Of a DNA stretch of 25,065 nucleotides, positions 24,068 to 24,139 are shown piece by piece. Below the pieces are notes generated by a model that saw only the letters and a list, made by a program, of their open reading frames with translations, was not told the origin of the DNA and searched no databases. This DNA comes from a virus. The translations under genes were made by a program, and so were the position numbers. The DNA lies in the IMG/VR virus record IMGVR_UViG_3300040811_000379, positions 1 to 25,065 of that record. One strand, written 5' to 3'. The number at the start of each line of letters is the position of its first letter. Position 1 is the stretch's first letter.

Positions 24068-24139
24068 TTACTTATTCATTACATACATTGTAACTTCAAA
24101 GCCGAAACGCATTTCTGTGTATGACGGTTTAGTCCACAT
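24068..24139 (-). CDS. pqqA: PqqA-like 23-aa peptide (PQQ precursor family)
   Basis: Read by hand: ATG at 24139, stop TAA at 24070-24068, with AAGGAG 7 bp before the ATG. The 23 residues begin [13 protein letters not shown] and continue [10 protein letters not shown]. From memory the Klebsiella PqqA is also 23 aa, starts MWKKPAF and has the same GLEVTLY register. The Glu (15) and Tyr (19) of ExxxY, which are joined to make the cofactor pyrroloquinoline quinone, are at the same positions. No pqqB-E gene is in the window, so processing would need host enzymes or genes elsewhere. The next gene is an Fe(II) oxygenase-like protein. Identity by pattern is strong; function in a virus is inference. 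Confidence 0.85.
   Translation of the reverse strand: [23 protein letters not shown]

Follow-up and report, generated by a model that had tools for sequence, protein, structure and literature searches.

A virus-borne pqqA cassette in a T4-type phage and its recurrence among phages of methylotrophs

The pqqA locus and its surroundings

The window, i.e., the whole 25,065-base stretch of viral DNA analysed here, contains a gene for the PQQ precursor peptide, pqqA, on the minus strand at 24068..24139, identified as an open reading frame and by Pfam and NCBIfam profiles. The ATG begins at 24139 and the TAA ends at 24068, and the 72 bases encode 23 amino acids. The peptide begins with MWTKP and carries Glu15 and Tyr19 (E15-x3-Y19); the length, MWxKP start, and residue pair reported in the first-pass annotation, an earlier reading of the letters alone, were all recovered in this frame. 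The strong ribosome site described there corresponds to a Shine-Dalgarno sequence, AAGGAG, at 24147..24152 (minus strand), 7 nt 5' of the ATG. The Pfam profile search proposed at that stage, with a poor score named as the refuting outcome, gave 46 bits for PF08042 (E-value of 4.5e-12), far over the cut-off of 21.1, and the profile was covered end to end. The NCBIfam equivalog TIGR02107 scored 47 bits against a cut-off of 20. The entire record contained this single PqqA match and no second pqqA, and 14 control genomes contained none. A degenerate pattern of the peptide gave a single match in the window and none in 100 shuffles, and a chance open reading frame was rejected on this ground. No PHROG family matched the window PqqA, and a phmmer search of the PDB found no PqqA chain. 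The window gene is a true pqqA. In agreement with the earlier statement that no PQQ biosynthesis enzyme lies nearby, neither pqqB–E nor any other PQQ-enzyme gene was found among the genes examined in this 25,065-base fragment.

The DNA topoisomerase large subunit encoded in the window is ~35–37% identical to those of T4-like phages, and genes for a baseplate hub and tail fibre proteins are also present. On the basis of these neighbouring genes, the window belongs to a T4-type myovirus. It also encodes UvdE, an ATP-dependent ligase, ClpP, an Fe-S assembly protein, 6-pyruvoyl-tetrahydropterin synthase, and eight tRNAs. The T4-type topoisomerase, tail, and baseplate genes, together with the presence of pqqA in complete isolate genomes (described below), place the gene in phage genomes, as expected for an auxiliary metabolic gene.

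pqqA lies in a 199-nt cassette (24024..24222, minus strand) between the genes for a peroxiredoxin (24223..24780, minus strand) and a 2OG-Fe(II) oxygenase-like protein (23481..24023, minus strand). The upstream peroxiredoxin gene keeps its place in the gene order of relatives, and its product is only ~50% identical to theirs. The downstream gene was assigned by PHROG and by a Pfam match slightly under the cut-off; its product is 80–84% identical in three relatives and 54% in a fourth. Four viral contigs have in common the order of baseplate hub end, peroxiredoxin, 2OG oxygenase, MazE-like, IF-1, and SprT-like genes, some of which were not found in one of the four. In the stretches examined, 13 nt separate the peroxiredoxin and oxygenase genes of the four pqqA-less relatives as compared with 199 nt in the window, and pqqA was not found in the records of these relatives (61, 22.6, 57, and 50 kb). 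Gain in the line of the window and loss in the relatives are both possible, and gain would be simpler. A sigma-70-like promoter (TTGACA-17-TACTAT, 24030..24058, minus strand) is predicted between pqqA and the oxygenase gene by a match to the consensus only. A predicted RNA stem of ~11 bp (23985–24070, minus strand; z of −3.8) encloses the oxygenase start codon and possibly exerts translational control. The IF-1 homologue (23044–23262, minus strand) has a Pfam score of 89 bits, is 67–74% identical in relatives, and adjoins the MazE-like small protein.

The phage peroxiredoxin next to pqqA suggests a reading in which extra PQQ serves a purpose other than methanol dehydrogenase, e.g., antioxidant protection. 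However, the peroxiredoxin sits at the same place in the pqqA-less relatives, and the annotated neighbours of pqqA differ in Venkman, Melnitz, P19250A, MEP301, and MEP402. We consider such a role unlikely.

Occurrence and conservation of pqqA in phages

The 23-residue peptide was compared by tblastn with a collection of 50,697 phage records, of which 12 matched. Eight are Methylophilales phages (Venkman, MEP301, MEP401, MEP402, and four Melnitz records), and the other four are LD28 phage P19250A, a metagenomic podovirus from spring water (Manatee Spring), and two records named Acinetobacter phage MD-2021a. The last two were discarded because the one examined, with pqqABCDE, looks like a bacterial assembly. 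This record, CAKLQF020000010.1 (L243), also contains polyphosphate kinase and further chromosomal genes and was apparently misfiled as a phage. PqqA in the phage collection is limited to phages of Methylophilales/Methylophilaceae, one metagenomic podovirus, and this misnamed bacterial project. All six cultured phage types that were checked (Venkman, the three MEP phages, Melnitz, and P19250A) carry the gene. In a 2023 paper on OM43 phages, Venkman, MEP301, and Melnitz are the isolates preceding its own MEP401 and MEP402 (PMC10580990), and all five encode pqqA.

No annotated feature lies under the PqqA peptide in Venkman, P19250A, MEP301, MEP401, and MEP402. All four Melnitz records, as well as the podovirus, have a "hypothetical protein" annotated at this place; in Melnitz-1 and the podovirus it lies on the opposite strand from pqqA. 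The copies in Methylophilales phages, which span several lineages, have never been annotated as PqqA. The first-pass annotation had described the gene as too short for usual gene calling.

A first pattern scan of IMG/VR found at least 120 contigs with PqqA. Because its pattern required Glu15 and Tyr19, a second scan was carried out with a pattern of the N-terminal half only. Many copies were found by both scans, and Glu15 and Tyr19 were kept in all 126 viral copies matching the N-terminal-half pattern; the loss of these residues in relatives, which had been listed as evidence against a PqqA, was not seen. Almost all viral PqqA peptides have 23–24 amino acids, an ATG start, and a strong ribosome site upstream. 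The 118 distinct 54-nt cores encode 48 peptides with a pS of 0.63 and a pN of 0.10, although this contrast, like the conservation statistics, is inflated by search patterns that fixed part of the codons. Arg11, which the first scan left free, never varies and is encoded by five codons. The substitution pattern indicates that the viral peptide is under purifying selection.

A very short gene with similar copies in hosts might represent contaminating host DNA, or a functionless sequence that arose by chance or came along as a passenger. This is contradicted by the occurrence of pqqA in complete isolate genomes; moreover, the gene in the window lies amid phage genes that form a conserved block in relatives, and the peptide shows the signature of purifying selection. 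We regard this explanation as extremely improbable.

By flank similarity, the viral pqqA loci form ~30 clusters. No PqqE reached the family cut-off in the 50 longest viral records, two of which gave weak radical-SAM matches, and the PQQ_2 domain was absent from those 50 records and from six isolate-type genomes; carriage of PQQ enzymes along with viral pqqA was rejected on these results. Open reading frames of the host pqqE region (at least 85 amino acids) had no tblastn match in the viral loci. Co-location with pqqBCDE, which is common in bacteria and not required, was not observed for viral pqqA. Six viral contigs (L003, L009, L017, L065, L092, and L109) have a more divergent PqqA without the upstream site described below, and are probably from phages of other hosts.

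Likely hosts and the site upstream of pqqA

A scan of genome contigs gave only Amphritea and relatives, whose PqqA core (11 residues) is different from that of the window. For this reason, the host family was retrieved by a class-wide search for hexulose-phosphate synthase, and we infer that it is Methylophilaceae. Among the 57 genomes of this family, pqqA was found in 47 (2–9 matches each) and PqqE above the cut-off in 45, mostly as a single copy; these counts are in line with the host range with a PQQ pathway on which the earlier proposal depended. The surplus of pqqA over pqqE agrees with the 3–12 copies of pqqA per single pqqBCDE reported for Methylophilaceae (PMC4109929). The commonest host PqqA has 23 amino acids and a 10-residue core identical to that of the window. 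The host of the window phage is most likely a Methylophilaceae methylotroph of the OM43/LD28 type. SAR11, which the first-pass annotation had named together with marine methylotrophs for a PqqA alignment, was rejected as the host since Methylophilales are indicated both by the core of the host peptide and by every phage host identified. Nine of the genomes (G417, G424, G436, G438, G439, G447, G055, G448, and G449) had neither pqqA nor PqqE above the cut-off, and at least G417 and G055 nevertheless encode hexulose-phosphate synthase. If the assemblies are complete, these are possibly PQQ-free or PQQ-importing methylotrophs.

Outside the core, the host leader has EYSD at a place where viral leaders often read AATE, and the viral C-terminus is VMNK as compared with ICNR. 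Such differences could be expected if the viral peptide acted as a decoy, tying up PqqD/PqqE so that less host PQQ is made, or steering these enzymes towards a different product. A decoy, however, need not retain the cross-linked residues, which are kept without exception in the viral copies, and we give this reading little credence.

An operator-like inverted repeat, TAATGATTTTACGTA, is located at 24206..24220 (minus strand), 81 nt before the pqqA ATG, and appears to be a variant of the host pqqA site. It scores 23.4 bits under the viral motif and is by far the top site in the window. A tentative −10 box, TAAATA (24177..24182, minus strand), is inside TTTAAATA, and this longer sequence is also similar to a T4-type late promoter. 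The spacing of the box is like that at other viral pqqA loci and the hexamer is weak. By k-mer counts, TAATGATTTT occurs in 29 of 132 viral pqqA upstream stretches against 0.3 expected. The refined viral motif, T[AC]ATGATTTTC..TA, exceeds 8 bits in ~82% of the upstream stretches and in 2.5% of random ones, and is present in 25 of 30 flank clusters. Above 12 bits, there are 100 sites at pqqA, 34 elsewhere, and 22 in a reversed-sequence control. All of these figures were computed on the data used to build the motif. The motif is palindromic, with an r of 0.72 to its own reverse complement (column-shuffled mean of 0.14). Venkman and the podovirus have one clear half-site only, and the site of MEP402 is weak (9.5 bits). 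On the 3' side, folding energies below −8 kcal/mol were obtained for the 45 nt after the pqqA stop in 60% of viral copies and in 19% of the background. The orientation of at least one neighbour is opposed by pqqA in 61 of 114 classifiable viral copies. Viral pqqA usually looks like a self-contained cassette consisting of an operator-like site, a promoter, a ribosome site, the peptide, and often a terminator-like hairpin.

In the host family, a palindrome, T[CA]AGGAAAATCCT[GT]A (T[CA]AGGA-N3-TCCT[GT]A), was found upstream of pqqA. Its strict pattern is present in 47 of the 57 genomes and missing from nine of the ten without pqqA. Among 54 compared host sites, which were from genomes with printed pqqA positions, 42 sit 103–137 nt 5' of a listed pqqA. 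At the host loci L168–L197 the palindrome is largely confined to pqqA, and a second TTCCTGACG often follows ~30 nt further. In 85 cases, the best match of the host matrix in a viral upstream stretch coincides exactly with the viral site. When every cluster has the same weight, the viral and host matrices correlate with an r of 0.73 (p of 0.002–0.011) and are similar, not identical; the strict viral form occurs in only two of the 57 genomes. The phages have the feature looked for in a host-type pqqA regulatory site, a 6-3-6 inverted repeat 5' of pqqA that is mostly confined to this gene. In our reading, the viral and host palindromes may be variants of the site of one regulator. Related genes are under the control of NarL/FixJ-type regulators, MxaB and AgmR/ErbR among them.

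The occurrence of the site mainly before pqqA in phage contigs, and of the similar host site mostly before pqqA, would also fit a different view, in which the site is the key element. Copies of the phage genome would titrate the host regulator and deregulate host pqqA, and the peptide would be secondary. Against this are the apparent purifying selection on the peptide and the five of 30 clusters that have the peptide without the site. Titration as the main explanation seems quite unlikely, and it is compatible with a supply of extra PqqA rather than exclusive of it.

Proposed role and relation to known systems

Our preferred explanation, to which we assign a probability of roughly 0.7, is that the phage supplies extra PqqA to host PqqD/PqqE and raises PQQ for methanol dehydrogenase. 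The carrier of pqqA would be a T4-type phage that infects a Methylophilaceae methylotroph, and only the precursor peptide would be phage-made. Host PqqD and PqqE would bind the phage PqqA and cross-link Glu15 to Tyr19, the remaining host enzymes would complete PQQ, and PQQ would load the PQQ-dependent methanol dehydrogenase (XoxF/MxaF), with the supply of energy and C1 units continuing during infection. Because one PqqA is consumed per PQQ, a 72-base gene could be sufficient if the substrate limits the flux. The surplus of host pqqA over pqqE suggests that PqqA supply can be limiting. As the viral site resembles the host pqqA site, the host regulator probably controls the phage cassette as well.

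PqqD binds PqqA with a Kd of 0.39 µM, probably via the leader, and presents the Glu and Tyr to PqqE (PMC10906245). In Methylorubrum, disruption of one pqqA reduced PQQ, according to work cited in PMC6520949. This result and the multiple host copies give indirect backing to a limitation of the flux by PqqA. In Acetobacter, overexpression of pqqAB increased PQQ by 29% and that of the entire operon eightfold (PMC7936290); since the gain with pqqAB was only 29%, substrate alone may give a small increase. Whether many unrelated lineages of methylotroph phages repeatedly acquired one minimal cassette, in which the substrate peptide is switched by a variant of the host pqqA operator, is in our estimation an evenly balanced question. 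If so, supplying precursors to RiPP-type enzymes of the host would be a strategy of phages in general, and the driving force would be hosts whose PQQ is limited by pqqA dosage. Phages of marine and freshwater methylotrophs may help to control PQQ supply, with consequences for methanol turnover. The finding bears on why Methylophilaceae keep several pqqA for one pqqE, raises the pqqA-linked operator in the inferred Methylophilaceae as a new question, and offers pqqA as a 72-base marker for methylotroph phages that gene callers miss.

The first-pass suspicion that PQQ-related sequences had been noted in marine phages was correct as to an earlier report, which is from a lake: PqqA was described in 2020 in the Lake Baikal Methylophilaceae virus population VP_266 (PMC7678222). 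In the open literature, viral PqqA was found in that paper and as a gene name in a list from reservoir sediment, and a search with the peptide core found nothing. Within this open literature, we found no account of the recurrence in all methylophage isolates checked, of the cassette as an orphan, or of a site like that of the host; the generality, autonomy, and host-like switch of viral pqqA appear to be undescribed so far. VP_266 is similar in that PqqA is encoded by a T4-like virus assigned to Methylophilaceae. It is a single case whose population also encodes methanol dehydrogenase. The viral pqqA of the present analysis recurs across many lineages, and no PQQ enzyme was found next to it.

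As a member of the PqqA family (PF08042/TIGR02107), the window peptide is typical in its full-length match, E15-x3-Y19 pair, MWTKP start, 23 residues, and core as in the inferred Methylophilaceae hosts. It differs in being virus-borne, without pqqB–E nearby, and with its own upstream site, and viral leaders and tails often differ. Stand-alone copies of pqqA are normal in Methylophilaceae (PMC4109929), and the orphan state apart from pqqBCDE is shared with these chromosomal copies and with a methanol-grown PQQ producer (PMC9851590). In the host genomes of this analysis, a palindrome likewise lies ~100–140 nt 5' of pqqA, with T[CA]AGGA-N3-TCCT[GT]A in the host and T[AC]ATGA-N3-TCnnTA in the virus. 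Like phage auxiliary metabolic genes and morons, viral pqqA is a host-derived gene of patchy distribution that is flanked by phage genes and has control signals of its own. Unlike them, it would supply a ribosomal substrate peptide that is consumed, not an enzyme.
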